From Albidovulum litorale (GTDB lineage: Bacteria; Pseudomonadota; Alphaproteobacteria; Rhodobacterales; Rhodobacteraceae), in assembly GCF_025751495.1 (NCBI RefSeq), contig NZ_JAOWKZ010000005.1:1-64000 (forward strand): DNA of 64,000 nucleotides, read 5' to 3'. Each line of letters starts with the position of its first letter. Within the stretch, counting starts at the first letter, position 1. The notes below the pieces were generated by a model, which made no database searches, was not told the DNA's origin, and saw only the letters and a program-made list of their open reading frames with translations. The position numbers and the translations under genes are program-made. Shown here in pieces: positions 24,516 through 45,757 of the stretch.

Positions 24516-24727
24516 ATGTCCGGTCAGGGGACGCCGGAATAGCAGAACTTCGGCGCTTCGAATGGCGGCTGTGGGCCGTTCTTGTCGAATTGACTGGACT
24601 TCGCGCGGCGCCAGAGCGGTAGTGACACCAGGCCCGATCGAAAGGGTCACAGCTCCGCCCGGGTGCCCCCGGGCTCATGTCAGTAGCAGGGGCTGGGTGC
24701 TCCTGTGACCTAGGACAGGAGATGACC

Positions 24728-25045
24728 ATGACCACCGATATCACCAATGCCAAGCCCCGGCGGCGTAAGGCGCCCGCAAAACGTGCAACCAAGAAAGATC
24801 AGCTGACCAGGATACTCCGCAGCGCTACGGGCGCCGATGTCGCTGCGATCCGCGCGAAGCTTGGCTGGCAGGCCCACACGGTGCGGGCGGCGCTGACCGG
24901 CTTGCGCAAGGCGGGCCACGAGCTAGTCGCGGAGAAGCCGGGGCAGGGGAAGCCAACCCGCTACCGGATCGTCGGAACGCCAGCCGCCACGGTGTCACCG
25001 GACCCCGCAGCCACGGATGCCCGCGAGACCACCGATGCCCGGTAA
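24728..25045 (+). CDS. DUF3489 protein, copy 1 (predicted small DNA-binding protein)
   Basis: A 105-residue protein with a basic Lys/Arg-rich N-terminal tail and a compact helical domain (KKDQLTRILRSATGADVAAI, then WQAHTVRAALTGLRKAGHEL) that reads as a winged helix. The end is KPTRYRIVG followed by a flexible Pro/Ala tail. ATG 24728 is preferred over ATG 24722 because GGAG is six bases upstream of it. DUF3489 proteins are regularly found with DUF2924 and large recombinases. A regulatory or DNA-targeting role is inferred. Confidence 0.8.
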   Translation: MTTDITNAKPRRRKAPAKRATKKDQLTRILRSATGADVAAIRAKLGWQAHTVRAALTGLRKAGHELVAEKPGQGKPTRYRIVGTPAATVSPDPAATDARETTDAR

Positions 25046-25445
25046 GGCCGATCCGGATCGCTCGGGTCTCCAGCAGGACTGGGAGGAGGCTTTCGGGTCT
25101 CCTCCGCCCGCCTATGCTTCGGTCGCCTTCCTGCGTAAGGCGCTCGCCTATGAGGCGCAGGTGAAACGTCATGGCGGACTGCCTGCCGCCACCCGGCGCG
25201 CGCTCAGCCAGATTGCGTCGGGCAAGCCGGTCGAAGAGGCGGCGCGGAGACGGTTGCGGCCCGGCGCGCATCTGGTGCGGGACTGGAACGGGCGGAGCTA
25301 CCAGGTCGAGGTGCAGGAGAAAGGCTTCCGGCTTGATGGCAGGACCTGGCCCTCGCTCTCGGCCATCGCGCGGCACATCACCGGCACTAGCTGGTCGGGA
25401 CCGCGCTTCTTCGGACTCAATGATCGAACCGGAGGCAAGGGATGA
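25035..25445 (+). CDS. DUF2924 protein, copy 1
   Basis: A 136-residue protein matching DUF2924: WEEAFGSPPPAYASVAFLRKA and YEAQVKRHGGLP near the start, then GAHLVRDWNGRSYQVEV and the C-terminal FRLDGRTWPSLSAIARHITG and WSGPRFFGL. ATG 25035 is chosen; ATG 25017 is an in-frame alternative. It overlaps the end of the DUF3489 gene, and its stop overlaps the recombinase start as ATGA, so the three are translationally coupled. Its biochemical role is unknown. The strict linkage suggests an accessory factor for recombination. Confidence 0.85.
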   Translation: MPGKADPDRSGLQQDWEEAFGSPPPAYASVAFLRKALAYEAQVKRHGGLPAATRRALSQIASGKPVEEAARRRLRPGAHLVRDWNGRSYQVEVQEKGFRLDGRTWPSLSAIARHITGTSWSGPRFFGLNDRTGGKG

Positions 25446-27079
25446 AGAAGATCCGCTGCGCCATCTATACGCGGAAGAGCTCTGAAGAGGGACTCGAGCA
25501 GGAGTTCAACTCGCTCCATGCCCAGCGGGAAGCCTGTGCTTCCTACATCGCCAGTCAGAAAGCCGAGGGCTGGGCATTGCTGCCGACGCAGTACGATGAT
25601 GGCGGGATCTCGGGCGGCACGCTGGAGCGCGCGGCGATGCAGCAGCTCTTGGCCGATGTCGATGCCGGCCTTGTTGACCAGATCGTGGTCTACAAGATCG
25701 ATCGGTTAACCAGGTCGCTCGCCGACTTCGCGAAGATCGTCGAGCGGCTGGATGCAGCGGGGGCCTCCTTCGTCTCGGTGACGCAGAGTTTCAACACCGC
25801 AACCAGCATGGGGCGGCTCACGCTCAACATGCTCCTCAGCTTCGCCCAGTTCGAGCGCGAAGTGACGGCCGAGCGGATCCGCGACAAGATCGCGGCTTCG
25901 AAGCGCAAGGGGCTCTGGATGGGCGGCTATGTGCCTCTGGGTTACGACGCGGATGGACGGACGCTGCGGATCAACGAGACCGAGGCGAAGACGGTCAGGA
26001 CGCTTTACAATCTCTATCGCGACTACGGTACGGTTCGTGACGTCAAGGAGGCGGCAGCGGTGCATGGCCTTCGGTCGAAACGCAGGACCGTTGCGGATGG
26101 TCGCATGCGGGGCGGGATACCTTTGGATCGCGGTCACATCCATCACATCCTGACGAACCCGCTCTATGCCGGGAGGATCCGCCACAAGGGGCAGGTTCAT
26201 GAGGGTCAGCACCCGTCGATTATCGCTCCGGATATCTGGGAAAGAGTGCAGGAACAACTGACCGCCGAGGCCAGAAAGCCCCGCGCCCGGAAGGCATCGT
26301 CCACCCGCTCGCTACTCTGCGGCAAGATCTATGATGAAACCGGCGACCGGCTCACGCCCTCGCATTCGAGGACCCGGGCCGGTGCACGGTTACGCTATTA
26401 CATCTCGCACCGTTTGGCGGCGCGCAGCGGCGAGGCGGGTGTCTCCGGATGGCGGCTGCCAGCGGAAGAACTGGAGGCTCGGGTTGAGGCGGTCGTTCGC
26501 GGGATGTTGTCTGACGTCACGCTGGCCGGACGCTTGATGACCGCGCCGGGCGCGGATGAGATCGCGCGGCTGCGGTCCGGGTTGGAAGGTCTGGCCGATG
26601 CGGGGAGAGCCGATCTTCTGAACCTGGTCGGGCGCGTCGACATTGCGCCAGGGCACTTGATGCTCGAACTCGATGCAGCTGCGCTCGCCGGGCATCTGGC
26701 GCTGGACGTGGACCGACTGGATGCAGATGCACTCGCGAAGTCCGTGCCGTTCCAGCTGCGCAAGCGGGGAGTGGAGACAAAGCTGGTGCTGGCCGATGCC
26801 CCCGCCGGGCGCGATGACCTCCTGATCCACAACATCGCCCGTGCGCATCACTGGTTCAGTGAGATAGTGGCGGGACGCAGCTTCGACGCGATCGCCACGG
26901 CCGAAGGCATCTCGAAGCGCCGCATCCAGCAGATGATCGATCTCGCCTTCCTTGCCCCGGACATCATCCGCGATGTCCTCGACGGCAAGCAGCCGCACGG
27001 ATTTACGTCCGATTGGTGCCTGCGGCACCCGCTCCCGTCGGACTGGTCAGAACAACGAACGCTGCTCGCTTCGCCCTGA
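25442..27079 (+). CDS. Large serine recombinase, copy 1
   Basis: A 545-residue resolvase/invertase-fold recombinase. The catalytic Ser lies in the AIYTRKSSEEG segment (about 7-17). Conserved Arg residues are in KIDRLTRS and the E-helix start FAQFEREVTAERIRDKI. The Recombinase domain follows (HIHHILTNPLYAGRIRHKG), then a zinc-ribbon region that looks degenerate because only one Cys is visible near SLLCGKIYD, and a C-terminal HTH-like part (GISKRRIQQMIDLAFLAP). It should catalyse site-specific integration and excision between att sites. It is highly similar to the copy at 43,870-45,510. Confidence 0.93.
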   Translation: MKKIRCAIYTRKSSEEGLEQEFNSLHAQREACASYIASQKAEGWALLPTQYDDGGISGGTLERAAMQQLLADVDAGLVDQIVVYKIDRLTRSLADFAKIVERLDAAGASFVSVTQSFNTATSMGRLTLNMLLSFAQFEREVTAERIRDKIAASKRKGLWMGGYVPLGYDADGRTLRINETEAKTVRTLYNLYRDYGTVRDVKEAAAVHGLRSKRRTVADGRMRGGIPLDRGHIHHILTNPLYAGRIRHKGQVHEGQHPSIIAPDIWERVQEQLTAEARKPRARKASSTRSLLCGKIYDETGDRLTPSHSRTRAGARLRYYISHRLAARSGEAGVSGWRLPAEELEARVEAVVRGMLSDVTLAGRLMTAPGADEIARLRSGLEGLADAGRADLLNLVGRVDIAPGHLMLELDAAALAGHLALDVDRLDADALAKSVPFQLRKRGVETKLVLADAPAGRDDLLIHNIARAHHWFSEIVAGRSFDAIATAEGISKRRIQQMIDLAFLAPDIIRDVLDGKQPHGFTSDWCLRHPLPSDWSEQRTLLASP

Positions 27080-27293
27080 TCGCCCCCTCTTACACCTCGC
27101 ATCGCGAAAAGGCCGGACGCAGACTTTGGCTGATTTGCTCGCTCACACTCGGCGCCCTGGCGGTCTGCGAAAGCGACCGCGCCGCGCAAGCCGCGGAGAA
27201 CGCGCGACTATTAGAGGTGCACCTCGCACCGTCTCGATGTCAGGAAGTGGGTGGCTGTGCTGGCAGTCCCGGGCTAGCTGGTCTCTGCCTTCG

Positions 27294-27444
27294 AAATCCC
27301 TGTTTACAGGGAATTAACAGGGAAATCGGCGCGCTTTGGGGTCTTTGGGGCAAATTCCGCGTTGATTAATGGCGTCTTTTCAATAGTTTGGCAGCGATTT
27401 CCCTGCGCGTGACAACAGGGAATTCGAAATCCCTGATCAGGGAA
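27294..27444. repeat. Cluster of CAGGGA/TCCCTG palindromes
   Basis: The words TCCCTG and CAGGGA occur repeatedly as inverted pairs: CCCTGTTTACAGGG (27298-27311), CAGGG (27318-27322), TCCCTG...CAGGGAATT (27400-27424) and TCCCTGATCAGGGA (27430-27443). They can form short stems separated by AT-rich spacers. I recall similar non-coding repeats near mobile elements in Rhodobacteraceae. They lie just past the right end of recombinase copy 1 and before the IS3 element. Confidence 0.6.
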
Positions 27445-27673
27445 GTTCGCAGGCAAAAACAGGAAACGGATCAGGCGGAACAGGGATCACTCGTCGCCGG
27501 TTGGGCTACGTTACGTTACCTGAGACCATTCCGGGCACAGAATTAGTTGACCGATCGCATGTTCATGATATGTTCTAACGTGATCGATTGTCTGACGTCA
27601 GCGCCAATGGGACAGTTTAGGGTGATTTGATAAGAGAGGGTTTCTGGCACATCGTAACCACCAAGGAGTGGAG

Positions 27674-28048
27674 ATGAGACAGAAACCCGGAACCAAGCAG
27701 AGCCACGGCGAGAAAGTCGTCAAGGACATCCGTCGAGCGACCCGCAAACAGTATTCGGCCGAAGAGAAGATCAGGATCGTGCTGGACGGCCTGAAGGGCG
27801 AGGACAGCATTGCCGAGCTGTGTCGCCGCGAGGGTATTGCCCAGAGCCTGTATTACAGCTGGTCCAAGGATTTCCTCGAGGCCGGCAAGAAGCGTCTGGC
27901 GGGCGATACGGCCCGCGCGGCGACATCTACCGAAGTTAAGGATCTGCGCCGTGAGGCCCGCGATCTGAAGGAAGTCGTTGCCGAGCAGGCACTGGAGCTG
28001 CGGCTGCTCAAAAAAAGCATGATCGCGGATGGGGAAGACGACGAATGA
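27674..28048 (+). CDS. IS3-family transposase OrfA (HTH protein)
   Basis: A 124-residue protein. It has a HTH_Tnp_1 domain (YSAEEKIRIVLDGLKGEDSI, AELCRREGIAQSLYYSWSKD) followed by a coiled-coil with the repeating DLRREARDLKEVVAEQALEL pattern. It recognises the inverted repeats and multimerises with the integrase part. ATG 27674 follows AAGGAG. The stop overlaps the orfB start. Confidence 0.93.
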   Translation: MRQKPGTKQSHGEKVVKDIRRATRKQYSAEEKIRIVLDGLKGEDSIAELCRREGIAQSLYYSWSKDFLEAGKKRLAGDTARAATSTEVKDLRREARDLKEVVAEQALELRLLKKSMIADGEDDE

Positions 28049-29025
28049 GGTATCCCGCATCCGAGAAGCTTGAGGTCATCCGCTTGGTCGAAGGATCTCA
28101 TCTGCCTACCAAGCGCACGCTGGACAAGCTCGGCATCCCCAGAACGACCTTCTACCGCTGGTATGATCGGTATCTGTCGGGCGGCCCCGAAGCCTTGGAA
28201 GATCGCAGCCCCAGGCCGTCGCGGGTCTGGAATCGTATCCCGGAACCTGTTCGCGAGAAGGTCAAGGACCTGGCCCTGCAGGAAAGTGAGCTGTCACCGC
28301 GCGAGCTGGCCGTGCGCTTCACCGACACAGAAAAGTATTTTGTGTCAGAAGCCTCCGTGTATCGTATCCTCAAATCCTACGACCTGATCACCAGCCCGGC
28401 CTACGTGGTTCTGTCAGCGGCTGACGAGTTCCGGGACAAGACCACACGGCCGAACCAGCTTTGGCAGACCGACTTCACATACCTGAAGGTCATCGGTTGG
28501 GGCTGGTTCTATCTCTCGACGATCCTCGACGACTACAGCCGCTACATCATTGCATGGAAGCTCTGCACGACGATGAGGGCTGGCGACGTGACCGACACGC
28601 TGGACCTGGCACTGCAGGCTTCAGGCTGCGATCAGGCGACGGTCCTGCACAAGCCGCGGCTGCTCTCGGACAACGGCGCCAGTTACATCTCGGGCGAACT
28701 GGCCGACTGGCTGGAAGACCGGCAGATGGGTCATGTCCGCGGTGCCCCGTATCACCCGCAGACCCAGGGCAAGATCGAACGATGGCACCAGACCCTGAAG
28801 AACCGCATCCTGCTGGAAAACTACTACCTGCCTGGCGATCTCAGCCAACAGATCGACGCCTTCGTCGAAAACTACAACCACCGACGCTATCACGAGAGCC
28901 TGCAGAACCTCACACCGGCCGACGTCTACTTCGGACGCGGTCAGACCATCCTGCAAAAACGAGAAAGGATCAAACGGAAGACCATCGAAACCCGGCGCTT
29001 GCTTCACCGCAAACCCGCCGCATAA
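28045..29025 (+). CDS. IS3-family transposase OrfB (DDE integrase)
   Basis: A 326-residue rve-type integrase. It starts with a helix-turn-helix (LPTKRTLDKLGIPRTTFYRW), then the catalytic core: LWQTDFTYLKV (first Asp), LSDNGASYISGEL (second Asp) and QGKIERWHQTLK (Glu). Coupling is by an ATGA overlap with orfA rather than an obvious frameshift heptamer. The gene looks intact, so the element may still be active. Confidence 0.94.
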   Translation: MRYPASEKLEVIRLVEGSHLPTKRTLDKLGIPRTTFYRWYDRYLSGGPEALEDRSPRPSRVWNRIPEPVREKVKDLALQESELSPRELAVRFTDTEKYFVSEASVYRILKSYDLITSPAYVVLSAADEFRDKTTRPNQLWQTDFTYLKVIGWGWFYLSTILDDYSRYIIAWKLCTTMRAGDVTDTLDLALQASGCDQATVLHKPRLLSDNGASYISGELADWLEDRQMGHVRGAPYHPQTQGKIERWHQTLKNRILLENYYLPGDLSQQIDAFVENYNHRRYHESLQNLTPADVYFGRGQTILQKRERIKRKTIETRRLLHRKPAA

Positions 29026-29060
29026 TCAAACCAACCAGATGCGCCAGACCCTCTCCTAGA

Positions 29061-29576
29061 TCAGGCCGCTAACTGGCCCAAAAACTCTGACGACGGACAC
29101 TGCTTGCACGTATCACGCGCCGAAATACCAGCTTCCGGCGAATAAAAGTCGGTAGAAACCACGGGAACGGTCTGCCTGAGTGCCTCCGCCATGCGGCAGC
29201 CAGTGCCGACATACGCCTCCTCCAACGACGCGCGGAGCAGTTTCTTGCTGTCTGCTGTCGGCGCCGAGAGACGAACGAAAAGCAGGTCGTTGTTTTCCTC
29301 ATCGTGGATCGTGTCTATGCGTTGCCCGATACGATCAAGATCGGTCACGATCGCTGCATCCGCCTCTCGGATCACATGCACGTGGCGATCACGTTTATCC
29401 AACCCAAGGAGGGTAAGGATCTCGGTCTTCCTCGCTTCTGGGAAGCCTGCTTCCTCTGATAGAATGACATAGACGGGCATAAGGTCGGACGCACTGAAAA
29501 TGGCGCGGTATCCGACCAAGACAATCAAAAGAACCGTCAGGATCACCAGACTCGGTCGGGTGAGGCCGCTCCACAT
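29061..29576 (-). pseudogene. Membrane-anchored hypothetical protein, 3' end replaced by the IS3 element
   Basis: ATG 29576-29574 (MWSGLTRPSL) starts a protein with one N-terminal membrane helix (LVILTVLLIVLVGYRAIF, about 9-27) and an alpha/beta-looking soluble part with VYVILSEEAGFPEARK and RHVHVIREADAAIVTDL. The last codons before TAG fall inside the IS right end (29,099), so the natural C-terminus is missing. No family is recognised. Confidence 0.55.
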
Positions 29577-29606
29577 TTCAAAGCCCTGTTTGGCGCAGAA
29601 GCGCAA

Positions 29607-30002
29607 ATGTCCGATGTGGTTTAGTCAAACCCGATCCAACGGTTGAGAAAAGCTACCCGATCAGCATATTCGGATGCTACAGGCACTACAACGAAGACAG
29701 AGCCCGGGAATGAAACCGGGCGCAGCAATGCCGGGACGCGGCAGCAAGGGATCGAGCCGCCGATCTTCGCACTGCAGCAGACGAATACGCTCCGGGCTGT
29801 GCCTGGCCTGAGAGGCCGGCCCTGAGCCGACCTTGAGCCAATCTGCGACGAAGGTCCGGAGGGAGCCCTTCTCAGACATTGGGGTCAGGCGCAGCATTCG
29901 TCCTGCATGACGGCAACAAGACACTTGCCGCGTTTTGACCGAAGGTCCGCCCTGCGACTGGCCGGGCCTCCGATCAGCAAGAGCGCTACGCCCTCTGCAG
30001 CG
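29607..30002. other. Gene-free stretch with a short hairpin
   Basis: There is no credible gene. A small inverted repeat, GCCCGG (29702-29707) with CCGGGC (29716-29721), is present. Words such as gcaacaagacacttgccgcgttttgaccgaaggtccgcc (29,913 onward, in part) have the mosaic style seen at 1,600-1,900 and 42,840-43,003. Confidence 0.3.
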
Positions 30003-31679
30003 TCACTGGCAGCACGGGATGACGCGCGGGTCGTAGACCGGTTGCGAGTTCGGCACGCCACCCCCGAAATCCTGCGGAACGGTGTAGAAGGCCTGTGTCC
30101 ATGCATGGACGTCCAGTGGTTCGAACAAGCTTTCCTGCGGCTCGTTGCGGATCGGCTGGCCTGGGTTCACGCCGCGCAGCACCTCGCCGCCATCGACCAC
30201 CACCACGCCGTTGACGATCACGAAGGGGATGCCGGAGGACGGCAGATTGCCCTGCGCGTAGGTGGCGTTGTCGGTCACTGTCTCCGGGTCGAAAATCGTG
30301 ATGTCGGCGATCATGCCCTCCTGCATCCGCCCGCGCTCCTGCATCGCTTTCAGCCCCGTAAGACCGAGCGGGCGCGCCGAGTTCCAGCTGAGCTGGGCGA
30401 CGCTCTGCATCAGGGGGATGCCGTTCTCGCGCCCCATGCGCAACGTCCGCGCGCAGCTGCCGGCCCCGCGTGGGTGACTGTTGGGCAGATCCTCGAAGGG
30501 CGTATCCCATGTGATGCTGTCGTCGAGGATCGGCATCCCGTCTGACGCGATCGCCACGTCAGGCAGCCGCAGCCAGTCGACAATGGCGTTCTCAGGCATC
30601 TTGTAGGCCAGCACCAGCCGCGCGGGCTCGCGCGCCATCATCTCCGTGCGGCTCTCCTGCGTGTACCATTCCCCGGTCAGCGCATCCTGGATGGTCTCCT
30701 CGTACTTGTAGCCGAGCTGATCTACCCAGATCTCCGGTTCGAGGAAGACGGCGTTCAGCGCCGTCGAGCCCGCCGCGTAGGGGTAAAGCTCGCCCCACAT
30801 GTTGTGGCCTTGCGCGCGCATCCGCACCAGCAGCTCGTGCACGAGGTTGTACCCGGGGTTGTTAAAGTGACAGGCGATGGCGGGCGCGCCGAGCGCGGCG
30901 GCGTTCGCAAGCATCTCTTGGATACCGTTCGCTTCGCTCGTGTCCGTGCCGGGCGTGTAGCGGAAGTGGAAGGCGCAGGGTCTTCCATAAGCTGCGGCGA
31001 TGCGCTGGATCTCGAAGACCTCGCGTGCCGATGCGCCGTCGCGCATGTAGCCGAGCGTCGAGCCGATGCCGACTGCGCCCGCGGCGAGGCCCGTATCGAG
31101 CACGCGCAGGATCTCGTTGCCCTTGTCGAGGTCCGGGCGGGTATGGGACCAGCCAGACTTGTCCGAGCCGCGATGGTTCATGGCCTCAGGCGCATCGATC
31201 GTCGTGATGCCGTCGAGCACCAAGGTACGCGCGAATTCGTGGCAGCTGGCGCAGCCGTAGTTGATCTGGTTGGTCCCGGTGCGCTCTGCGTACCAGTCAT
31301 CCACCAGCGTTCCGAGCGTCCCGATCTCGAGGTCCATAACCGTCGTTCGCCCGTCGAGCAGTGCGAGCTTGTTGCCCATGGGCCGGGGCCAGTGAAAATG
31401 CGTGTCGATGAAGCCGGGCGCGACGACATGGCCGCTGGCGTCGATCTGGCGGCCGCCCTCGAGCGGTTCGACTGTGATAGCGGCTATCCGACCCGCGCGC
31501 ACGCCGACATTTGCGACCTGGTCAAACCCGGTCTCGGGGTCCATCACCCGCCCGCCAATGATCACGAGGTCGAATGGCTCCCTCGTCTGCGCCAAGGCTC
31601 TACCCGCGGACCCAATGGCGGCCGCACCCGCGACAACACCAAGGTTGAACTCCCTGCGGGAGATCTCGTTCTCGCTCAT
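30003..31679 (-). CDS. Exported amidohydrolase, D-aminoacylase (N-acyl-D-amino-acid deacylase) type
   Basis: A 558-residue protein with a twin-arginine signal (ISRREFNLGVVAGAAAIGS, Ala-rich cleavage region near 30). It then follows the urease-like amidohydrolase plan: FDLVIIGGRVMDPETG, GHVVAPGFIDTHFHWP with metal ligands His94 and His96, and ADITIFDPETVTD at the C-terminus. The spacing fits amidohydrolase family 3/D-aminoacylase. ATG 31679-31677 lies behind GGAGAG. It is the third of three exported hydrolase genes on this strand, after two penicillin-recognising-fold enzymes, suggesting joint action on D-amino-acid-containing or lactam compounds. Confidence 0.85.
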   Translation of the reverse strand: MSENEISRREFNLGVVAGAAAIGSAGRALAQTREPFDLVIIGGRVMDPETGFDQVANVGVRAGRIAAITVEPLEGGRQIDASGHVVAPGFIDTHFHWPRPMGNKLALLDGRTTVMDLEIGTLGTLVDDWYAERTGTNQINYGCASCHEFARTLVLDGITTIDAPEAMNHRGSDKSGWSHTRPDLDKGNEILRVLDTGLAAGAVGIGSTLGYMRDGASAREVFEIQRIAAAYGRPCAFHFRYTPGTDTSEANGIQEMLANAAALGAPAIACHFNNPGYNLVHELLVRMRAQGHNMWGELYPYAAGSTALNAVFLEPEIWVDQLGYKYEETIQDALTGEWYTQESRTEMMAREPARLVLAYKMPENAIVDWLRLPDVAIASDGMPILDDSITWDTPFEDLPNSHPRGAGSCARTLRMGRENGIPLMQSVAQLSWNSARPLGLTGLKAMQERGRMQEGMIADITIFDPETVTDNATYAQGNLPSSGIPFVIVNGVVVVDGGEVLRGVNPGQPIRNEPQESLFEPLDVHAWTQAFYTVPQDFGGGVPNSQPVYDPRVIPCCQ

Positions 31680-31866
31680 GTTGTTCTCTCCTCTCCATTT
31701 CGGTTGGGCGATGCCGACGGCGACGGCACGCGCCGCAGTCAGGTTCTTTGGGTTTGGTTCCTGCATTGAGCGTCTCATGTCGTCGATGCAGGGCGTTCGG
31801 TGGAGAGTTCGATCTGCGCTGTGCAGGATCGCCTCTCCACCTGATCCGTGGCTCTTGTCGCCCCGG

Positions 31867-33342
31867 TTATTGGAAGACAGTACCGGAGAGGTCGAAGTCG
31901 TCGACCGCCCCGTCGCCCCGAATGAAGATCCGGTGGTTGAATCGCACGTAGTTGAGTTCGCCAGACGGATCTTCGAGCAATTCGCCAAGGGCTCCCTCGT
32001 TCGGGCCTTCGGTGATGATAAAATAGCCATCAGCCGTATTGGCCACATTGGCCGGCGCGGGATCCGATCCGCTGGTCAATGCGGAGAACTGCACAAACAC
32101 ATATTTGTCGCCCTCTTTGCGGATCTCGATGTTTTGGGAATTCCCCTTGAAGACGCCGACGAAGGGATCGAGCACAGCCGGATCAACGCCCGCTGCGACC
32201 GGAGAGTCGGCCTCGATGCCCGTGAAGGCTTTGACCATTGAGTTCGCAATTTTTTTATAGGCCTCGGCTCCGCGATCGCTGTGGACCAAAACCACCACGG
32301 CAAAGTCGCGATCCGGGATCAGCTGCAGAAAAGACCGCGTGCCGGGCCAGTTCCCCCCGTGGCTGGGGCTGGTGACCCCGTCGTAGTCATGGACGAACCA
32401 TGTCAGCCCGGTAAAGTCGCCGGCCTCAGCCTCGACTGCCGGAGCGTGGGCATAGTCCAGTGCTTCTTCGGACAGCAGCTGGTTCCCGGCGGCGTCCTTG
32501 CCGTCCAGCTGAAAGCGGGCGTATTTCAGCATGTCGCTAACCGTAGACCGGAGCGCGCCGGAGGCTGCGGACTCTCTGATCAACGGAATGTAGTACGGCT
32601 TGAGATCATTGATGTTGCCTTCGCCGTAGATCGGCGGATGACCCCATGCGTAGTTTTCAGCCGGCGGAGTGGGGTCGTAGTTAAAGGATGACGAATCCAT
32701 GCCGAGAGGAGTCAACAGGTTCTCTTCGATCAGGTTCTCGATCGGCTTTCCGCCGGCATGCGACACCACATGGGTCGCGAAGGTGATGCTGGTGTTGTTG
32801 TACATCCAGGTTTGATCGAACGGATAGAGCTGCTCGACGTAAGCCGCCTGGAGCATGACCTTCTCGCTGATCGACCCGCCCGGAGGAACACGAAGGAACC
32901 CATGGTCGCCATACCAACCAGCGCGATGGTGGAACAGGTCAACGACCCGCGCTTTCGACGTTGCGTCGGGATCCGCGACCCTCCACCACGGTAGGAGGTC
33001 GACGACACGCGCGTTCAAATCCAGCTCGCCCCGTTCGGACAGCTGCAGGGCCACTGTCGACAGGAAGGTTTTGGTCACAGAGCCAATTTGAAATTGCGTA
33101 TCAGGGGTAACGGCCTCGTCGGTGCCTACCTTCGTGATGCCGAGGCCGGCGCTGTAGGTGTTGGGCCCATGGATGACCCCGACACCAAGCCCCGGGATGT
33201 TCATTTCCTTGATCAGTTCAGCAGTTTCGGCGAGGACCGCATCAAAGGTCGCCTGGCCCTCTTCCTGTGTCATGGCCTGCTGTGCGAGTGCCGGTGTGAC
33301 GCACAGTAGCGACGAAACAAGCAGGGCAGGTAGTGGTTTCAT
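31867..33342 (-). CDS. Exported serine beta-lactamase-like hydrolase (class C/PBP-like fold)
   Basis: A 491-residue protein with a signal peptide (LPALLVSSLLCVTPALA, cleavage near 20). Catalytic Ser88 and Lys91 lie in GSVTK, Tyr181 in MYNNTS, and the third motif reads SHGGNWPG. A C-terminal beta-domain of about 110 residues follows (DPFVGVFKGNSQNIEI). Such proteins act as D-aminopeptidases, esterases or penicillin-binding hydrolases rather than true resistance enzymes in many cases. ATG 33342 gives a good signal peptide; ATG 33372 is an alternative. It lies between the amidohydrolase and the class A beta-lactamase. Confidence 0.85.
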   Translation of the reverse strand: MKPLPALLVSSLLCVTPALAQQAMTQEEGQATFDAVLAETAELIKEMNIPGLGVGVIHGPNTYSAGLGITKVGTDEAVTPDTQFQIGSVTKTFLSTVALQLSERGELDLNARVVDLLPWWRVADPDATSKARVVDLFHHRAGWYGDHGFLRVPPGGSISEKVMLQAAYVEQLYPFDQTWMYNNTSITFATHVVSHAGGKPIENLIEENLLTPLGMDSSSFNYDPTPPAENYAWGHPPIYGEGNINDLKPYYIPLIRESAASGALRSTVSDMLKYARFQLDGKDAAGNQLLSEEALDYAHAPAVEAEAGDFTGLTWFVHDYDGVTSPSHGGNWPGTRSFLQLIPDRDFAVVVLVHSDRGAEAYKKIANSMVKAFTGIEADSPVAAGVDPAVLDPFVGVFKGNSQNIEIRKEGDKYVFVQFSALTSGSDPAPANVANTADGYFIITEGPNEGALGELLEDPSGELNYVRFNHRIFIRGDGAVDDFDLSGTVFQ

Positions 33343-36041: not shown

Positions 36042-36042
36042 A

Positions 36043-37832: not shown

Positions 37833-38347
37833 GACTGGATCCTCCTGAAGTTAAACCCGTTTCAACGCCGCTTTTGCGTCGCGCGACATCAAGAGCTGCT
37901 GAATCGCAGCAGCCTAAGACGTCCTTGTAGTACGGTTTTGTTCACACCACGCCCCCCGAATGCCTTAGGCACGGCAAAGAACGTATAGATCCGAGCCACG
38001 ACTAACAGCGGCTAACAGACAATAGTAGGCAGAAATTTGACGCGCTGCAGCCGGGAAATAAGATCAAATTCCGGACGAATGCAGGACCGGATGTTGAACC
38101 AGAGCCTCGACTTCCTTGGTTGCCTTCTGCCCTTTTTCTGGCCGCATGGCAGGATCAGACAGGAGCCGAAGCGGCTCTGGCGCTGTCTCAGATCTTGTGC
38201 TTGAACTTGCTGCCAGTCCCCGGTGCCAGAGCGGGTTGGGTTCTGGACCACAGTGTATTCCCGGCGATCCTCGGGACCGCTTTCGCGGGCGGGATCGACA
38301 TGCTGCTGTCGATTATCAAATACGTCATACACTGACCTGCTGCGCGG
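37833..38347. other. Gap without a supported gene
   Basis: A plus-strand frame ending at 38,335 is open for over 90 codons and partly hydrophobic (QILCLNLLPVPGARAG), but it has no good start, no ribosome site and no recognised family. A minus-strand frame overlaps it. I regard the stretch as non-coding or decayed. Confidence 0.3.
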
Positions 38348-39403
38348 CTATTCATTCATCGCAGGTCGAAGGCGCCAAAGGTTTTCACCCTGCGCGACGA
38401 GGCCTTGCCGCGCGTCGGCGCGTTCGCCCGCATGCAGCAGTCGGCGCAGATCTTCGCCGACGGCTCGACTGTAGATGTGATAAAGATGACCCGTCGGTCC
38501 TTCGCTGGGAAGGTCGCTGAGGTCGATCACCTCGACGCCCGCAAGTTGGGAGAAATCGTTTCCCGTCTCCCCAAGCCGAGGGTAGCCATGCAATTGCGCC
38601 GAAAGCGCTAGAGGTCTGTCGCCGCTCGTCACGTAGACTGTGATGCTCTTCGCGATGAGGCGGAACCGGGGAAGCATGCGCTCGAAGATCGCAAAATCCA
38701 TGTCCGGCGCCAGAAGCACGACATGGCCAAGCTGGATATCCGGATGCCGATTGGCCACTTCGGCCAGCGCCAGAACGACACCCCGAGCACCAAGGCTGTG
38801 CCCGATGACATCCACGTTCCCGGCGCCGAAGCGCCGCTCCAACTCAATGATCGTGTCCGTAATGTCCGGCAGGCTCCAGTAAAGATCGGCTTCGTCATGG
38901 GTGTAGTAGGCCGGAGCACCGTCCGAGGGCTAACTGAACCACAGGAACCGCCCCACAAGGTCGGCGTTCTGCTGCAGCAACGCGGCGCGGCGGCAGCCTT
39001 TCTCGAAGCTGATATAGTATCCGTGGACATAGAGCGCCCGACCACGTGCGCCGGCCGTTCCTTCTAGCCGATCCAGGATGGCGCCCGGGTCCGCTTCCTC
39101 CACCGTCTGAACGCGGAGGAGTTCCTCGCGCAAGAAATTCGGAGCCATGTCGGCAAGGGGCGCCAGAACGCCAAGGTCGAGCTCTTCGACGCGGCATGCA
39201 CCCGCTTTCAGATCGCTGCGTTCTCCTCCATAAAAGTCAGCTGGATCATCCGATCCTGTCCTGTTGCGAAGCGTGAAATAGGGGAATTCCAAGGCCTGGA
39301 TCTCCGTCTGGGCCTTCGACGGCACGGGGAAGGCGCATGACAAGGCGCCGAGGCAGAGCATGACGCCCATCAGGCGGGCGAAGGATGGTGCGCACATTTT
39401 CAT
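38348..39403 (-). pseudogene. DUF900-type alpha/beta hydrolase broken by one nonsense codon
   Basis: ATG 39403-39401 opens a signal-peptide-like N-terminus (LMGVMLCLGALSCAFPVPSKA). The frame then shows LYVHGYYISFEKG and FLWFS, followed by TAG (38932-38930), and continues in the same frame with PSDGAPAYYTHDEADLYWS, IGHSLGARG (nucleophile elbow) and VVLLAPDMD to 38,348. The conserved family reading is FSWPSDG, so a single TGG-to-TAG change explains the break. Everything else looks intact, which points to recent inactivation. Confidence 0.85.
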
Positions 39404-39633
39404 ACCCGATATGTACCTCAGCCGCGCTTGCCGAAAAAAGGACCCTGGCGTTTGCACCATGCACTTTCACCATGAAGGCACAGGCTCTCGCACATGCGGT
39501 GCACCACATTGGCATTTTCGAATATAGCAGTGGGAAAATAAATGATTGCGTCGCTTCGCAAGTCTTTTGCGCGTCGGGCGGCCTCGTGACAAGGTCGGAA
39601 CCGAGACGTCGAACCCAGGGTAAAAGAGGCAAC

Positions 39634-41310
39634 ATGAACAACGGGGAAATAGCCAGGATCATCGGCAAGGTCTCGGTGCCGTGCTTGCTTCTCGGGCTGC
39701 TCTTCTTTGCGGCCTCGCTGACCCCGTCGCTCATCCCGCGCGGACCGGCTGTGCAAGGACTCCTCGGCGGGCTTGTCATGGCGATCGGCTATTTGATCGG
39801 CCAGATCGGTGCGTTGCTCTGGCGGGCGGCCGATCTTCCGCAGTTGTCCGGGCGGCCGGCAAACGTCCTGACAACGGTGATCGCGCTTCCACTCCTGGCG
39901 GTCTTTCTTTGGGTACTTGGATCCAGTCTGCGGTGGCAGAACGACATCCGCGAAAAGGTGGGCATGGAAGACGCGGATGCGCTTCAACTCACCACAATCC
40001 TGTTGATCGCGTTTGCGACCTTTGCCATCGCTTTCGCCCTTGGACGCGCTGTCGCCTCACTGTTTCGCCTGATCCGATCAAGGTTCTATCGCATTATGCC
40101 ACCGCGGCGCGCCAATGTGCTGGGGCTCATCGCGGTCGTGCTGATTTTGTTCGTGGTTACGCGCGATGGCATCGTCGATGAGGTCGTAACGGGCCTCGAC
40201 GAAAGCTACGAAGCCGCCCAGGAGCTCTTCGAGAATGCCCCGCCTCCCCCCGGCGACCCACGCATGACCGGCAGCGCAGAGTCCCTGATCGATTGGGCAT
40301 CCATGGGCAAGCCCGGGCGGGACTTCATCACCTCCGGCCCAACATCCGAGGATATCTCGGCCTTCACTGGTCGGCCCGCGCTTGATCCGATCCGCGTCTA
40401 TGTCGGGCGCGCCAATGGCGAGACGCCCGAGGCGCGGGCCGAACTGGCGCTTGCCGAACTGATCCGGCAGGGTGCGTTCGACCGCGACGTTCTGATCGTG
40501 GCAAGCCCCACCGGAACCGGCTGGATGGACCCGGGATCCCACGATCCGGTCGAATACATGCATGGCGGCGATATCGCCACCGTCGCCGCACAGTATTCCT
40601 ACCTGCAATCGCCGCTGGCTTTAATCCTGGAGACAAACACCGGGCTGGAACAGGCGACCGCGCTTCAGGATGTGGTGCATGGGTACTGGAAGACGTTGCC
40701 CGTCGATACGCGGCCCCGTCTATACGTTCACGGGCTGAGCCTGGGCGCCTGGTCGTCGATGCATGCCACGAACATGTTCCGACTGCTCGACGATCCCATC
40801 GACGGCGCCTTCTGGGCCGGTCCGCCCTTTCCCTCTGCCTTCTGGAAACACGTCCAGAACCAGCGCAATCCGGGCACACCCTGGGTCCTGCCGGAGATCG
40901 GGGACGGGTCACTGATCCGCTATGCGTCCCACACGGCGGATGCGTCCGAGGCCGCGGCGGAATGGGGGGACATGCGCATCGTCTTCCTGCAATATTCAAG
41001 CGACCCGGTCGTATTCTACGACCCCCGGTCGCTCTGGCGGGCGCCGCCCTGGATGCGGGATCCGTCGGCCGAGGACATGACGGAGCACTTCATCTTCATG
41101 CCCGTCGTGACGCAGTTCCAGCTGGCGCTCGACATGGCCCTGTCCTTTGGCGCGCCGCCCGGACACGGCCATGCCTACTTCGCGGAGGACTATATAGGGC
41201 CCTGGGTTCAGGTCACGGCACCCTCGGATTGGACACCCGAAGAAACACAACGGCTGAAGGCGCATTGCGATGTCGGCTACCAGCTCGGGTGCGCCAACCG
41301 GCAACCGTGA
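39634..41310 (+). CDS. Multi-pass membrane alpha/beta hydrolase (Abhydrolase_9 type)
   Basis: A 558-residue protein. Four or five membrane helices occupy about 10-195 (for example LLLGLLFFAASLTPSLIP, VLGLIAVVLILFVVTRDG). The C-terminal hydrolase domain has RVYVGRANGETPEARAEL, the nucleophile motif HGLSLGAWSS and a late His in the GHGHAYF region. This matches the PF15420/PF10081 architecture of unknown substrate, perhaps lipid or cell-envelope esters. ATG 39634 follows AAAGAGG. It stands alone on the plus strand. Confidence 0.85.
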   Translation: MNNGEIARIIGKVSVPCLLLGLLFFAASLTPSLIPRGPAVQGLLGGLVMAIGYLIGQIGALLWRAADLPQLSGRPANVLTTVIALPLLAVFLWVLGSSLRWQNDIREKVGMEDADALQLTTILLIAFATFAIAFALGRAVASLFRLIRSRFYRIMPPRRANVLGLIAVVLILFVVTRDGIVDEVVTGLDESYEAAQELFENAPPPPGDPRMTGSAESLIDWASMGKPGRDFITSGPTSEDISAFTGRPALDPIRVYVGRANGETPEARAELALAELIRQGAFDRDVLIVASPTGTGWMDPGSHDPVEYMHGGDIATVAAQYSYLQSPLALILETNTGLEQATALQDVVHGYWKTLPVDTRPRLYVHGLSLGAWSSMHATNMFRLLDDPIDGAFWAGPPFPSAFWKHVQNQRNPGTPWVLPEIGDGSLIRYASHTADASEAAAEWGDMRIVFLQYSSDPVVFYDPRSLWRAPPWMRDPSAEDMTEHFIFMPVVTQFQLALDMALSFGAPPGHGHAYFAEDYIGPWVQVTAPSDWTPEETQRLKAHCDVGYQLGCANRQP

Positions 41311-41369
41311 TCTGGCGCGTCATGGCGCAGGTGCCCGGCTCTCGCGACGCCTGAAAACGGCCACGGCTG

Positions 41370-42116
41370 TCATTCGGGGGTTTCGACAAAATGCAAGACG
41401 GTGCGCCCGTCGAAATCCGTCATCACAAGACCCGCACCATAGCGCACGTAATCCGAAACCTGCGCGAGCGCCGCGAGGAAACGCCGCTCCTGCGCCTCTA
41501 TCTCATAGGGGCAGGCCATCATGGTCCCGGCTATGTTTTCGAGAAAGGCAAGCCCGAGGCCGGATGGCTGCATCTGTCCCCGGAACCGATTGCAGCCTCC
41601 AAAGGCTGAGACATTCATCTCGTCGTCGATCATGAGCGTGGCCGGATCATCGTTGGGCCATGCTTGGCCAAAGACCTCCGTCACGGTCCAAGCCACACCC
41701 GAGATGCGGCGCGGCACCGCGACGTTCGTACCCGTGTCGGTCACCATTGTGAGCACGATATTGAACGCTGGTTGATCCGGCCCGGCCGGGAGCTCAAGCG
41801 TCTTGGTTGCACGGAACTGCTGCCGTCCATCCGGTGACAGGATACCCGGACTCACCGTCGACGCCCCGCGGGTCATAGCTCAGGGAAACGGTCATCGGGA
41901 CTTCGGTCATCTCGAAACCCTGCGAAGCTATGGCACCGACGTGCCCGTCGGCGTTCACGACCTCAAGGAGCCGCACGTCGAGTTGCGCTACGGGGGAAAC
42001 GCAATGCGTTCCCGAAAGGAAACCATCACCGAGAGCGTTTTCATCTGCGCCTCGGCGAATGTTGGGGCTGCCAAGAGCCACGAGAACAGTGACAGAACGC
42101 CGGAAAGCCCTCGCAT
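41370..42116 (-). pseudogene. META-domain envelope protein with two frameshifts
   Basis: Reading from ATG 42116 (MRGLSGVLSLFSWLLAAPTFA, a signal peptide) the protein reaches FRERIAFPP and TAG. A second frame carries on as VAQLDVRLLEVVNADG to LSYDPRGVDGESG. A third frame supplies ILSPDGRQQFRATKTLELP and the META domain (DEMNVSAFGGCNRFRGQ, FLENIAGTMMACP, YVRYGAGLVMTDFDGR). Together they reconstruct one protein of the YbaY-plus-META type of Rhodobacteraceae. The shifts lie near 41,985 and 41,845. It cannot be expressed as one protein. Confidence 0.8.
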
Positions 42117-42199
42117 GTTCTACATCCTTGCCCAAGCAACCCAGATTTTCGGAAACCGTTTCATTGTCCGCATATTCAAGTCTACGAGACTCATTTCGA

Positions 42200-42530
42200 G
42201 ATGGGTAGCTTACTCGCGCCCGTTTTGGTTTCACGCAATACCGCATGCTGTAGCAAAAGCACAAAGGAAGGAGTTGCTCGCATGTTTGCGCCTGCGGCCG
42301 CATCACGGCGTAGTCGCTCAGTATCTCCTCGATCGCCGATCCCTCGGGCAGCAGAGCCAATTGCTGAGCCGCCCGCGCCTGGAACTCCCTGCTGTGTTCG
42401 ACGACAGGCGTAAAGGCCCAGAGATTGCCAAGGTCGGAAGCGCCCGTTGCACAGTCGGTCAGCGAGATCGTCGCGAGAACGAGGACGACGCGCCGCCGCC
42501 TCGAGCATCCGTCGTCTTATGGACACCGCT
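42200..42530 (-). pseudogene. Decayed small lipoprotein gene
   Basis: One minus-strand frame reads VVLVLATISLTDCATGASDL (lipobox Cys in LTDC), then FTPVVEHSREFQARAAQQLA and LLPEGSAIEEILSDYAVM. This is a coherent small lipoprotein of a type I recall from Rhodobacteraceae. No ATG, GTG or TTG precedes the hydrophobic part before a stop. At its 3' side the frame runs on into the neighbouring pseudogene. It is scored as a remnant. Confidence 0.5.
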
Positions 42531-43003
42531 CAAATCGACCTCCTTCTTTCCGACATCAATGTGTGGCCGTTCAGCGCTAAGGCGAGATCAATTCACTGGC
42601 CTGTTGACCATATGATCGTCAGGGAACTCGCATACGAAGGTTGATTGCTAAAGAGCGCGACGGGACGCGAAATCACGCGATCGAAACATGAACATATTTT
42701 GCACACGACTTTCCGCAAGCTCTTGAAATCCTGTCAAAATCGTTACCATCCATCACCGGACAAATTTTACTGCGGTCCGATAGCAGCTCTTTGGCCAAGT
42801 TCAGACCTCGTAGTTAGAGCAAAGATCGGCTGTTTCGAGAGCCGACCTGCGGCAGCGCAGAATAGAACACGGTTCTGGCTCCGCCGCGGTGTCCGCTTTT
42901 TGAACGTCGGCCCGACAGTCTCGCGACCGCAGCGAAAGTCGGCTTTCCCGAATTCCGAACGCTATTTTGCGGGCGCGGCGAACTTCCGGTTTCCGCCCTT
43001 CCG
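42531..43003. other. Gene-free stretch with mosaic repeat sequence
   Basis: No supported gene. The last about 160 bases (42,840-43,003) are dense in words like cgcagcgaaagtcggctttccc and gcggcgaacttccgg (parts shown), the same flavour as 1,600-1,900. They run directly into the left end of recombinase copy 2, which begins at 43,004. Confidence 0.4.
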
Positions 43004-43146
43004 GTCGAATTGACTGGACTTCGTGCTGCGCCAGAGCGGTAGTGATACAGGCCCGATCGAAAGGGCCACGTCTCCGCCCGGGGTTGTCCGGGCTCATGTC
43101 AGTAGCAGGGGCAGGGCGCTCCTGTGACCTAAGACAGGAGATGACC

Positions 43147-43473
43147 ATGACCACAGTGACCACCAACGCAAGACCCCGGCGCAAGGCTCTCGCGAAGCCA
43201 CCCGCCGAACGTATCACCAAGAAGGGCCAATTGATCCGTATGCTCGGCAGCGCGGCGGGCGCCGATGTCGCTGCGATCAGCGCGAAGCTTGGCTGGCAGG
43301 CCCACACGGTCCGGGCGGCGCTGACCGGGCTGCGCAACGCCGGCCATGATGTCGTTGCCGAGAAGCCGGGGCAGGGGAAGCCAACCCGCTACCGGATCGT
43401 AGGAACGCCAGCCGCCACGGTGTCACCGGACCCCGCAGCCACGGATGCCCACGAGACCGCCGATGCCCGGTAA
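43147..43473 (+). CDS. DUF3489 protein, copy 2
   Basis: A 108-residue version of the protein at 24,728, with a more diverged basic N-terminus (RPRRKALAKPPAERITKKGQ) and an almost identical winged-helix core (WQAHTVRAALTGLRNAGHD) and tail. ATG 43147 has GGAG six bases upstream. It is the first gene of the coupled trio. Confidence 0.8.
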   Translation: MTTVTTNARPRRKALAKPPAERITKKGQLIRMLGSAAGADVAAISAKLGWQAHTVRAALTGLRNAGHDVVAEKPGQGKPTRYRIVGTPAATVSPDPAATDAHETADAR

Positions 43474-43873
43474 GGCCGATCCGGATCGCGCCAGGCTGCG
43501 GCAGGACTGGGAGGAGGCTTTCGGGTCTCCTCCGCCCGCCTATGCTTCGGTCGCCTTCCTGCGTAAGGCCATCGCCTATGAGGCGCAGGTGAAACGTCAT
43601 GGCGGACTGCCTGCCGCCACCCGGCGCGCGCTCAGCCAGATTGCGTCGGGCAAGCCGGTCGAAGAGGCGGCGCGGAGACGGTTGCGGCCCGGCGCGCATC
43701 TGGTGCGGGACTGGAACGGGCGGAGCTACCAGGTCGAGGTGCAGGAGAAAGGCTTCCGGCTTGATGGCAGGACCTGGCCCTCGCTCTCGGCCATCGCGCG
43801 GCACATCACCGGCACTAGCTGGTCGGGACCGCGCTTCTTCGGACTCAATGATCGAACCGGAGGCAAGGGATGA
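43463..43873 (+). CDS. DUF2924 protein, copy 2
   Basis: A 136-residue protein that differs from copy 1 at only a handful of positions, all in the first about 30 residues (ARLRQD for SGLQQD; RKAI for RKAL). From YEAQVKRHGG to the end the two are identical. Its stop overlaps the recombinase start. The abrupt change from diverged to identical sequence marks the edge of a conversion tract. Confidence 0.85.
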   Translation: MPGKADPDRARLRQDWEEAFGSPPPAYASVAFLRKAIAYEAQVKRHGGLPAATRRALSQIASGKPVEEAARRRLRPGAHLVRDWNGRSYQVEVQEKGFRLDGRTWPSLSAIARHITGTSWSGPRFFGLNDRTGGKG

Positions 43874-45510
43874 AGAAGATCCGCTGCGCCATCTATACGC
43901 GGAAGAGCTCGGAAGAGGGGTTGGAGCAGGAATTCAACTCGCTCCATGCGCAGCGGGAAGCCTGTGCCGCCTATGTCGCCAGCCAGAAGGCGGAAGGCTG
44001 GGTGCTGCTGCCAACGCAATACGACGACGGCGGGATTTCGGGCGGCACGCTGGAGCGCCCGGCCATGCAGCAGCTTCTCGCCGATATCGATGGCGGGTTG
44101 GTCGATCAGATCGTGGTCTACAAGATCGACCGGCTCACCAGGTCGCTCGCCGACTTCGCGAAGATCGTCGAGCGGCTGGATGCAGCGGGGGCCTCCTTCG
44201 TCTCGGTGACGCAGAGCTTCAACACGGCAACCAGCATGGGGCGGCTGACGCTCAACATGCTCCTCAGCTTCGCGCAGTTCGAGCGCGAGGTGACGGCCGA
44301 GCGGATCAGGGACAAGATCGCGGCCTCCAAAAGGAAGGGGCTGTGGATGGGCGGCTATGTGCCTCTGGGTTACGACGCCGACGGGCGGACGCTCAAGATC
44401 AATCCCGAAGAGGCGAAGGCGGTGCGGACACTTTACGATCTCTACCGCGACTACGGCACGATCCGGGAGGTCAAAGTGGCTGCAGCGGTGCTGAGCCTTC
44501 GGTCCAAAAGCAGGACAAACGCGGGTGGCCGCATGCAGGGCGGGATCCCCTTTGATCGCGGTCACATCCATCACATCCTGACGAACCCGCTCTATGCCGG
44601 GAAGATCCGCCACAAGGGACAGGTCCATGATGGTCAGCACCCGGCCATCATCGACCCGGATGTTTGGAGGGCGGTGCAGGCGCAACTGACCGTCGAGGCA
44701 AGGAAACCCCGCGCCCGGAAGGCATCGTCCACTCGTTCGCTACTCTGCGGCAAGATTTATGATGAAACCGGCGACCGGTTCACGCCCTCGCATTCCCGGA
44801 CCCGGGCCGGTGCACGGTTACGCTATTACATCTCTCACCGTTTGGCGGCGCGCAGCGGCGAGGCGGGTGTCTCCGGATGGCGGCTGCCAGCGGAAGAGCT
44901 GGAGGCTCGGGTCGAATCCATAGTCCGGGATCTGCTTGCTGATGCTTCCGTGCCTGCACGCCTCGTGACCGCGCCGGACACCGATGAGATCGCGACGCTG
45001 AGGTCCAGGCTGGTGGAGTTGAGCGGCGAGGCCGGTCGAGCGGATCTTCTGAACCTCATTGGCCGCATCGACATTGTGCCAGGGCACTTGATGCTCGAAC
45101 TCGATGCAGCTGCGCTGGCCGGGCATCTGGCGCTGGACGTGGATCGGTTGGACGCAGATGCACTCGCGAAGTCAGTGCCGTTCCAGCTGCGCAAGCGGGG
45201 AGTGGAGACAAAGCTGGTGCTGGCCGATGCCCCCGCCGGGCGCGATGACACCCTGGTCCGCAACATCGCCCGCGCGCATCACTGGTTCGGGCAACTCCGG
45301 GCCGGGCGCAGCTTCGACGAGATCGCGGAGTCCGAGGGCACATCCAGGCGTCGCGTTCAGCAGATGATCGATCTCGCCTTCCTTGCCCCGGACATCATCC
45401 GCGATGTGCTCGACGGCAAGCAGCCGATCGGGTTTACCTCCGACTGGTGCCTGCGGCACGAGCTTCCGTCCGACTGGTCAGAGCAACGAACGCTGCTCGC
45501 TTCGCTCTGA
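43870..45510 (+). CDS. Large serine recombinase, copy 2
   Basis: A 546-residue paralogue of the recombinase at 25,442. The catalytic N-terminal domain (AIYTRKSSEEG; KIDRLTRS; FAQFEREVTAERIRDKI) is nearly identical. The DNA-binding middle and the segment after EELEARVE differ more, for example SIVRDLLADASVPARL against AVVRGMLSDVTLAGRL. Both copies look intact. Differences in the DNA-binding region could give them different att-site preference. This copy lies 173 bases from the tRNA-Gln gene. Confidence 0.93.
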   Translation: MKKIRCAIYTRKSSEEGLEQEFNSLHAQREACAAYVASQKAEGWVLLPTQYDDGGISGGTLERPAMQQLLADIDGGLVDQIVVYKIDRLTRSLADFAKIVERLDAAGASFVSVTQSFNTATSMGRLTLNMLLSFAQFEREVTAERIRDKIAASKRKGLWMGGYVPLGYDADGRTLKINPEEAKAVRTLYDLYRDYGTIREVKVAAAVLSLRSKSRTNAGGRMQGGIPFDRGHIHHILTNPLYAGKIRHKGQVHDGQHPAIIDPDVWRAVQAQLTVEARKPRARKASSTRSLLCGKIYDETGDRFTPSHSRTRAGARLRYYISHRLAARSGEAGVSGWRLPAEELEARVESIVRDLLADASVPARLVTAPDTDEIATLRSRLVELSGEAGRADLLNLIGRIDIVPGHLMLELDAAALAGHLALDVDRLDADALAKSVPFQLRKRGVETKLVLADAPAGRDDTLVRNIARAHHWFGQLRAGRSFDEIAESEGTSRRRVQQMIDLAFLAPDIIRDVLDGKQPIGFTSDWCLRHELPSDWSEQRTLLASL

Positions 45511-45682
45511 TTGTACCCTCTCACACCTCGTATCGCGAAAAGGCCGGACGCAGACTTTGGCCAATTTGAGCGTCCGTTCTCGCTGCCCTGGCGGTCTGTG
45601 CAAACGCCCCTGCCGCGCAAGTCGCGGAAAACGCGCGACTATCCGGGGTCAACCTCGCACCGTCTCGAATTGCGGAACTGGG

Positions 45683-45757
45683 TGGCTGGGGCGGTAGGAT
45701 TCGAACCTACGGTGCGCGGTACCAAAAACCGGTGCCTTACCACTTGGCTACGCCCCA
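45683..45757 (-). tRNA. tRNA-Gln (anticodon TTG), CCA encoded
   Basis: Read on the minus strand it begins TGGGGCGTAGCCAAGTGGTA and ends with CGCCCCA, G, CCA. The acceptor arms TGGGGCG and CGCCCCA pair fully. The anticodon loop TTTTGGT gives TTG. The T-loop is TTCGAAT between GTAGG and CCTAC. The outermost anticodon-stem pair looks mismatched (C opposite C). The 75 bases include the 3' CCA. Its 3' end is shared with the right end of recombinase module copy 2, as expected for an attachment site in a tRNA gene. Confidence 0.95.

Follow-up and report, generated by a model that had tools for sequence, protein, structure and literature searches.

We analysed a 64,000-nucleotide stretch of DNA from Albidovulum litorale (contig NZ_JAOWKZ010000005.1, positions 1 to 64,000; hereafter the window), which carries two copies of a three-gene module encoding a DUF3489 protein, a DUF2924 protein and a large serine recombinase (Table 1). 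A preliminary description of this DNA had reported two direct copies in the same orientation, with the same gene content and with both limits of similarity in common, and all of this was borne out. Comparison of the window with itself gave a single strong match, 42995-45688 against 24575-27257 on the same strand, with 87.6% identity over 2697 columns (E = 0). Compared base by base, the copies diverge sharply to the left of about 24584/43004 and to the right of 27257/45688. The Pfam profiles detected one DUF3489 domain (7.1e-19 and 2.1e-18) and one DUF2924 domain (1.7e-38 and 5.8e-39) per copy as well as Resolvase and Recombinase domains in both copies, and the three reading frames overlap within each copy.

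Table 1. Features of the two modules and of the putative island in the window.
Feature	Position	Strand	Basis
Module copy 1, DUF3489-DUF2924-serine recombinase; read as integrase end of the older island	24584-27257	+	self-match, limits, Pfam
DUF3489 protein, copy 1, likely winged helix	24722-25045	+	Pfam; fold model built on copy 2
DUF2924 protein, copy 1	25017-25445	+	Pfam
Large serine recombinase, copy 1 (545 amino acids; S13 and R88, no CxxC)	25442-27079	+	Pfam, alignment
Older island's right half-site, ...AGTGGGTGGCTG, abutting the next island's left end	27239-27257	+	comparison
Putative integrative island at tRNA-Gln, 18,431 bp	27258-45688	+	borders inferred by comparison
Younger island's left end, TGCTGGCAGTCCCGGGCTAGCTGGTCTC, with CAGGGAA/TTCCCTG repeated five times	27258-27486	+	comparison
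rve-type transposase inside the island	28045-29025	+	Pfam
Cargo: amidohydrolase-like reading frame, two beta-lactamase-fold reading frames, AraC-type regulator, DUF900, Abhydrolase_9, unknowns	30003-42615		Pfam; mostly ~99% identical to G001:C17
Module copy 2; read as integrase end of the younger island	43004-45688	+	self-match, limits, Pfam
DUF3489 protein, copy 2	43141-43473	+	Pfam
DUF2924 protein, copy 2	43445-43873	+	Pfam
Large serine recombinase, copy 2 (546 amino acids)	43870-45510	+	Pfam, alignment
Core TGGCTG, last six bases of tRNA-Gln, common to both junction sides; putative crossover	45683-45688		sequence comparison
tRNA-Gln(TTG), putative integration target	45683-45757	-	tRNA search

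A tRNA-Gln(TTG) gene, unnoticed in the preliminary description, lies on the minus strand and overlaps the right end of copy 2 by six bases, so that this copy ends inside the last six bases of the tRNA. The right limit of copy 1 is the same half-site, and TGCTGGCAGTCCCGGGCTAGC stands directly after it, as it does in two copies of Defluviimonas aestuarii (genome G001). The 229 bases that begin here match left ends found in other genomes. We searched 22 genomes of the genus for this left end, with the core left out of the pattern and up to 3 mismatches allowed, and found it at 13 places in 8 genomes, while the same pattern read backwards gave no match in the same 22 genomes. The bases preceding it were TGGCTG or TGGCAG at 12 of the 13 places and TAGCAG at the other. 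An earlier search had included GGCTG in the pattern, so that the tRNA-like bases before its 12 left ends were partly built in; leaving out the core added one place, the TAGCAG exception. At this place (G013:C2:2915453-2915480) the left end does not follow a tRNA-like TGG end, and another module adjoins it. The tRNA-Trp of locus L196 ends in TGGCAG, and left ends preceded by TGGCAG would fit such a tRNA. Further to the left the DNA varies and consists of older module ends, the ends of other elements or other DNA. CAGGGAA/TTCCCTG occurs 59 times in the 2760 bp of the 12 left ends found with GGCTG in the pattern, one of which has none; the whole window contains it 11 times, and the window's own left end accounts for five of these.

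Taken together, the best reading of the locus is that the copy-2 recombinase inserted an island of 18.4 kb (27258-45688) at tRNA-Gln, next to an older island at the same tRNA for which copy 1 served as the integrase. It is highly probable that the module is the integration unit of islands that insert at the 3' ends of tRNA genes. In the proposed mechanism, the large serine recombinase would recombine the attachment site carried by the circular form of the island (attP) with the tRNA-Gln terminus, and the crossover would fall within the six final bases of the tRNA, which read TGGCTG on the plus strand. The outermost of these bases would be supplied by the island, and therefore the tRNA would stay whole. 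The module would then lie at the tRNA-side end of the island and the opposite end would begin TGCTGGCAGTCCCGGG. Islands would stack, a later one entering between the tRNA and the older island, whose module would then lie further from the tRNA and form a direct repeat, and excision is predicted to leave a chromosome in which 27257 is joined to 45689. An intact tRNA at one end and a tRNA piece at the other, the mark of tRNA-targeting islands, are both present, the piece being only six bases long. As for large serine integrases, the attP and the chromosomal site (attB) would share a short core, placed within TGGCTG by comparison. What the sequences themselves display are the shared ends, the fixed place beside tRNAs, a tandem pair of islands in genome G013 and the agreement between tRNA and recombinase tree; the island may still be mobile.

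Comparable islands were found in two relatives. In G013, left ends at 3243188 and 3285789 and a tRNA-Gln at 3330051 delimit two tandem islands, A (3243188-3285788, 42.6 kb) and B (3285789-3330056, 44.3 kb); each is closed by its own module, and B ends at the tRNA-Gln. In G009 there is one island (280700-302894). From left end to module end these islands measure 22-44 kb, with one far-end module for each left end. We also examined 32 recombinase frames from genus relatives and from G033, which belongs to another genus of the family. A tRNA gene lies within 1500 bp downstream of 12 of them (8 Gln, 3 Ser, 1 Tyr), in every case with its 3' end toward the recombinase. Seven of the tRNA-Gln genes lie 171-212 bp after the recombinase stop, and the eighth lies 655 bp after it.

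The same placement was seen across the public relatives. A profile scan of genome contigs matched at least 590 stretches, of which the best 80 loci were kept for the counts that follow; L170 and L193 among them are genus relatives, and L229 and L236 are nearly identical to each other. The results showed that 53 of the 80 loci have a tRNA gene 163-793 bp past the recombinase stop. All 53 tRNAs face the recombinase with their 3' ends and have an encoded CCA, and they cover 17 anticodon types and eleven amino acids. No tRNA was found within 3 kb upstream at any of the 80 loci, though 23 have less than 3 kb of sequence there, and ARAGORN found 62 tRNAs in the 1,245,305 bases of these loci. As controls, we took 15 unrelated large serine recombinases, 13 of them with room downstream, and found no downstream tRNA (0/13); five short relatives, four with DUF2924 beside them, had none either. 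A tree was built from 65 recombinases (53 public, window copy 2 and 11 from the fetched genomes). On this tree 19 changes account for the amino acids of the tRNAs, against a mean of 34.2 after shuffling, and none of 200 shuffles was as low (near copies uncorrected); the core hexamer changes 14 times, a count made with no shuffle comparison. tRNA identity follows the recombinase tree, and it is the recombinase that appears to choose the tRNA.

Several observations weigh against integration at tRNA ends by the module. Eighteen of the 80 public loci have no downstream tRNA with at least 800 bp of room (the rest comprise 7 with too little room and 2 without a stop), and 20 of the 32 frames in the fetched relatives have none within 1500 bp; as we read them, several of the 18 end in displaced tRNA pieces or attP-like junctions. 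In a set of 80 viral contigs, a tRNA was present within 800 bp in only 7, of which 6 face the recombinase and one has the opposite orientation; 38 have room and no tRNA, 23 have too little room and 12 lack a stop. An all-against-all comparison of the genus left flanks gave no clean alignment and no exact empty site, and the left end of the older island does not lie within the window. In the window alone the dyad around the crossover is weak: at the predicted circle junction it has 9 of 20 pairs, a level reached by 6% of window positions, and at 27256 it has 8 of 20, reached by 13%. In addition, the attB is conserved on the tRNA side only, which is unusual for serine integrases.

One alternative is that the tyrosine integrase of another element made the tRNA islands, with the serine module riding along as a passenger at this hot spot. 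At two loci, L114 (G000:C7:769-969) and L115 (G001:C23), a remnant of the module's right end and 20 bases of tRNA-Gln are followed by foreign DNA, which is the trace that tyrosine islands leave; another type of element seems to use tRNA-Gln there, cutting 20 bases in. Some tRNA-Gln genes also have no module alongside, and the G009 island contains a broken tyrosine integrase gene (PF00589). However, the tyrosine integrase usual for tRNA-targeting islands has no PF00589 match on the contig of the window (C10) or in G013 islands A and B. The module moreover keeps its place and orientation beside tRNAs of 17 anticodons, the unrelated serine recombinases show no such neighbourhood, and tRNA identity tracks the recombinase tree, all of which makes the passenger explanation very unlikely.

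It is very unlikely that the 2.7-kb module alone is mobile and was inserted twice, the DNA between the copies being unrelated to it. The left limit of similarity is indeed common to several copies with differing left flanks. At L100 (G001:C12, a tRNA-Gln locus) and L107/L193 (G012:C14), modules start about 0.3 kb or less from an older module end with a degenerate tRNA piece; very small elements may therefore exist, and these are possibly islands without cargo. Against this, no att-like sequence was seen at the left limit, whereas a conserved left end with repeats occurs at 27258 and at 12 further places, and the islands of G013 and G009 extend over 22-44 kb from left end to module end.

The preliminary description had proposed a composite element framed by the two copies and excising as 24584-45688; two direct copies of nearly equal extent would suit it, but copy 1 ends in the same right half-site as copy 2 and has a left end directly after it, and G013 and G009 carry one far-end module per left end, so that this candidate, with the outer ends of both copies as its borders, is extremely improbable and was rejected. 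Its view that the region between the copies can be carried or excised holds in so far as this region is readable as carried DNA; the frame of two copies gives way to a left end at 27258. A junction joining 24583 to 45689 is not expected from the stacked islands proposed here, in which each island (here 27258-45688) has one module. A deletion of about 18.4 kb could nevertheless arise if the two copies recombined by homology.

The cargo points to recent movement. The segment between the copies had been called rich in insertion sequence elements and pseudogenes, and Pfam did not agree: the 15 open reading frames (ORFs) scanned comprised 1 transposase, 7 other families and 7 without a match. Two adjacent ORFs at 31867-34579 have beta-lactamase folds (PF00144 and PF13354). 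From 29801 to about 42995 the window is about 99% identical to contig C17 of D. aestuarii, while the flank to the right of tRNA-Gln is only 90.5% identical between the window and this genome; the cargo therefore probably moved recently and horizontally. The matching stretch in C17 is not beside tRNA-Gln and has no module there, so the cargo would also have moved other than as the present island. One side of the match is near the contig end, and the other stops about 10 bases short of the module's left limit at an ORF that we take to be an IS1182-type transposase; the nearest tRNA found is a tRNA-Gly about 2.4 kb off with its 3' end pointing away. Relatives with one module and the intervening genes in place had been named as evidence of independent movement of the copies, and the outcome is mixed, in that D. 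aestuarii has the genes away from tRNA-Gln and without a module at that place. Ten ORFs scanned in G013 island B included Cas3, DNA methylase, transport, lyase and amidase proteins, four having no match at E <= 1e-10, and seven scanned in the G009 island included TetR-type, APH-family (phosphotransferase) and phage-baseplate-like proteins. No conjugation genes were found among the ORFs scanned, a part of all ORFs, in the window island, G013 island B and G009. Among ten window ORFs examined for defence genes, only generic helicase matches were found, at 20125-21567, outside the island.

In the recombinase, S13 and R88 are invariant in all 11 aligned relatives; S13 is presumably the catalytic serine, judging from the known motif of the family. 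The Resolvase domain (PF00239) is present with its serine intact in both copies, and the Recombinase domain (PF07508) of large serine integrases gives profile matches to A118 and other integrases in the PDB. The zinc ribbon of such integrases is missing, with no CxxC in any of the 11 relatives. It is no absolute criterion, because the Pfam ribbon is also absent from 10 of 42 streptococcal serine integrases according to the available part of PMC4701971. The AlphaFold model of the copy-2 DUF3489 protein has three helices and two strands (mean predicted local distance difference test score, pLDDT, 75.5; predicted template modelling score, pTM, 0.51). The fold matches listed from the PDB are mostly winged-helix proteins by title (best E 0.016, none <= 0.001), and by sequence the protein weakly resembles MecI and regulators of the MarR type (best E 0.022). 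For DUF2924 (mean pLDDT 81.6, pTM 0.44) there was no PDB sequence match and no fold match with E <= 0.001. The accessible part of PMC11342252 describes a partial overlap of DUF2924 with the RAMA DNA-binding domain, so the earlier statement that both families lack a known role is only partly right for DUF2924. Both proteins fit DNA-binding partners of the recombinase. The recombinase may act alone or with them, and their part may be to control the direction or the targeting of recombination, perhaps by way of the CAGGGAA repeats.

The linkage of the three genes had been called strict. The genes are linked, but less than strictly: of the 80 public loci, 76 have DUF2924 next to the recombinase and 59 have DUF3489 there (some loci are cut short upstream). 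Of the compact integrating element with two accessory proteins proposed earlier, the trio's place in an integrating element stands, and the accessory roles are conjectural. At G000:C13:6031-8592 and G000:C8:75804-77886, the recombinase next to DUF2924 is shorter, and its C-terminal piece comes after it as a separate unit. Within the window, positions 25144-25482 are identical to the matching part of copy 2 over 339 bases, the overall identity of the copies being 87.8%; the longest identical run in 8 other copy pairs examined was 170. This run suggests gene conversion between the two window copies.

In other lineages, displaced modules terminate at junctions, for example GACTGGATGGCGGTGCTGTCAGTC in L216 and GACTGGATGGTGGATGACTCAGTC in L245, which suggest the att pattern GACTG-N2-TGGN-(two central bases)-N6-CAGTC. 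Across loci, ACTG-N2-TGG-N9-CAGT gave 12 matches (10 distinct) against 1.7 expected under uniform base use; the pattern had been derived from three of the 12, and three others were judged to be chance. The shorter att pattern was also found in four viral contigs; in three of these the pattern and the gene are on different strands. Three viral contigs with DUF2924-recombinase modules (L272, L285, L291) have an attP-like dyad on the opposite strand and are perhaps phages that carry the module at the tRNA-distal end. In 14 hand-picked left arms, bases 16, 17, 19, 21 and 25-28 after the core are identical in 13 or 14; several of these arms had been picked with patterns that prescribe CAGT, and independence is limited to the positions that the patterns leave free. 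The GC.A.C at 16-21 could be a mimic of the T-loop. A tentative and rather doubtful generalization is that the whole ribbon-less clade is built for tRNA 3' ends: the left arm of attP would copy the T-loop (GC.A.C at 16-21 after the core versus TTCGAAC at about 12-18 in tRNAs), the core would be the CCA end with the first acceptor bases, and DUF2924 and DUF3489 would be dedicated partners easing the switch between tRNAs.

Insertion at tRNA ends is usually credited to an enzyme family other than the serine integrases. The available part of a database paper likewise states that targeting of tRNA genes is not known for serine integrases. We found no description of a tRNA-targeting clade linked to DUF2924 in the literature on serine recombinases or integrases and tRNA, a coverage that bioRxiv and most subscription papers fall outside, and within the literature searched DUF2924 was named in three papers, all on Wolbachia, and DUF3489 in one. 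If a serine clade behaves in this way, it could account for those serine prophages and islands for which the site was reported as 'not identified'; it would also supply att sites with which enzymes could place DNA at a conserved position and keep the gene unbroken, and would give two DUF families a testable job.

Three isolated precedents for serine enzymes at tRNA or tmRNA sites were found in the accessible parts of the sources: phiRSM, AcaML1 and vB_PamS_Pami6. The integrase of the Ralstonia filamentous phages phiRSM1 and phiRSM3 is, like the module enzyme, a serine recombinase acting at a tRNA 3' end, with the core TGGCGGAGAGGGT at the end of tRNA-Ser(UCG) (PMC3816273, PMC4471427). Unlike it, this enzyme is described as resolvase/invertase-like and as a small serine recombinase and has one target, and the available parts of these accounts leave DUF2924 and DUF3489 unmentioned. 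The Acidithiobacillus phage AcaML1 has a DUF2924 gene just 5' of a similar recombinase (47.5% identity over 82% of the query), and its attB is given as 'srrA' with 10-base repeats (PMC3826726, available part), which we read as ssrA, the tmRNA gene; it differs in being a phage, in having its recombinase annotated as two genes and in a target that is no plain tRNA. The Paracoccus phage vB_PamS_Pami6 resembles the island by description, as a serine-recombinase prophage predicted at tRNA-Met, and in the accessible part of that study it is the only serine prophage with a site found among 15-16 (PMC6536676). The large serine recombinase of Wolbachia phage WO (40.4% identity over 78%, DUF2924 upstream) is alike in sequence and neighbour gene only, and has a zinc ribbon match in contrast to the window enzymes. 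tRNA genes are a main landing place of genomic islands, and the Islander finder, as far as its available description goes, considers only tyrosine integrases there. The tRNA and tmRNA islands of the Islander type share with the island described here the position at a tRNA 3' end, the restored target and the integrase aboard; they differ in that, in the available part of the source, their integrases are tyrosine integrases.

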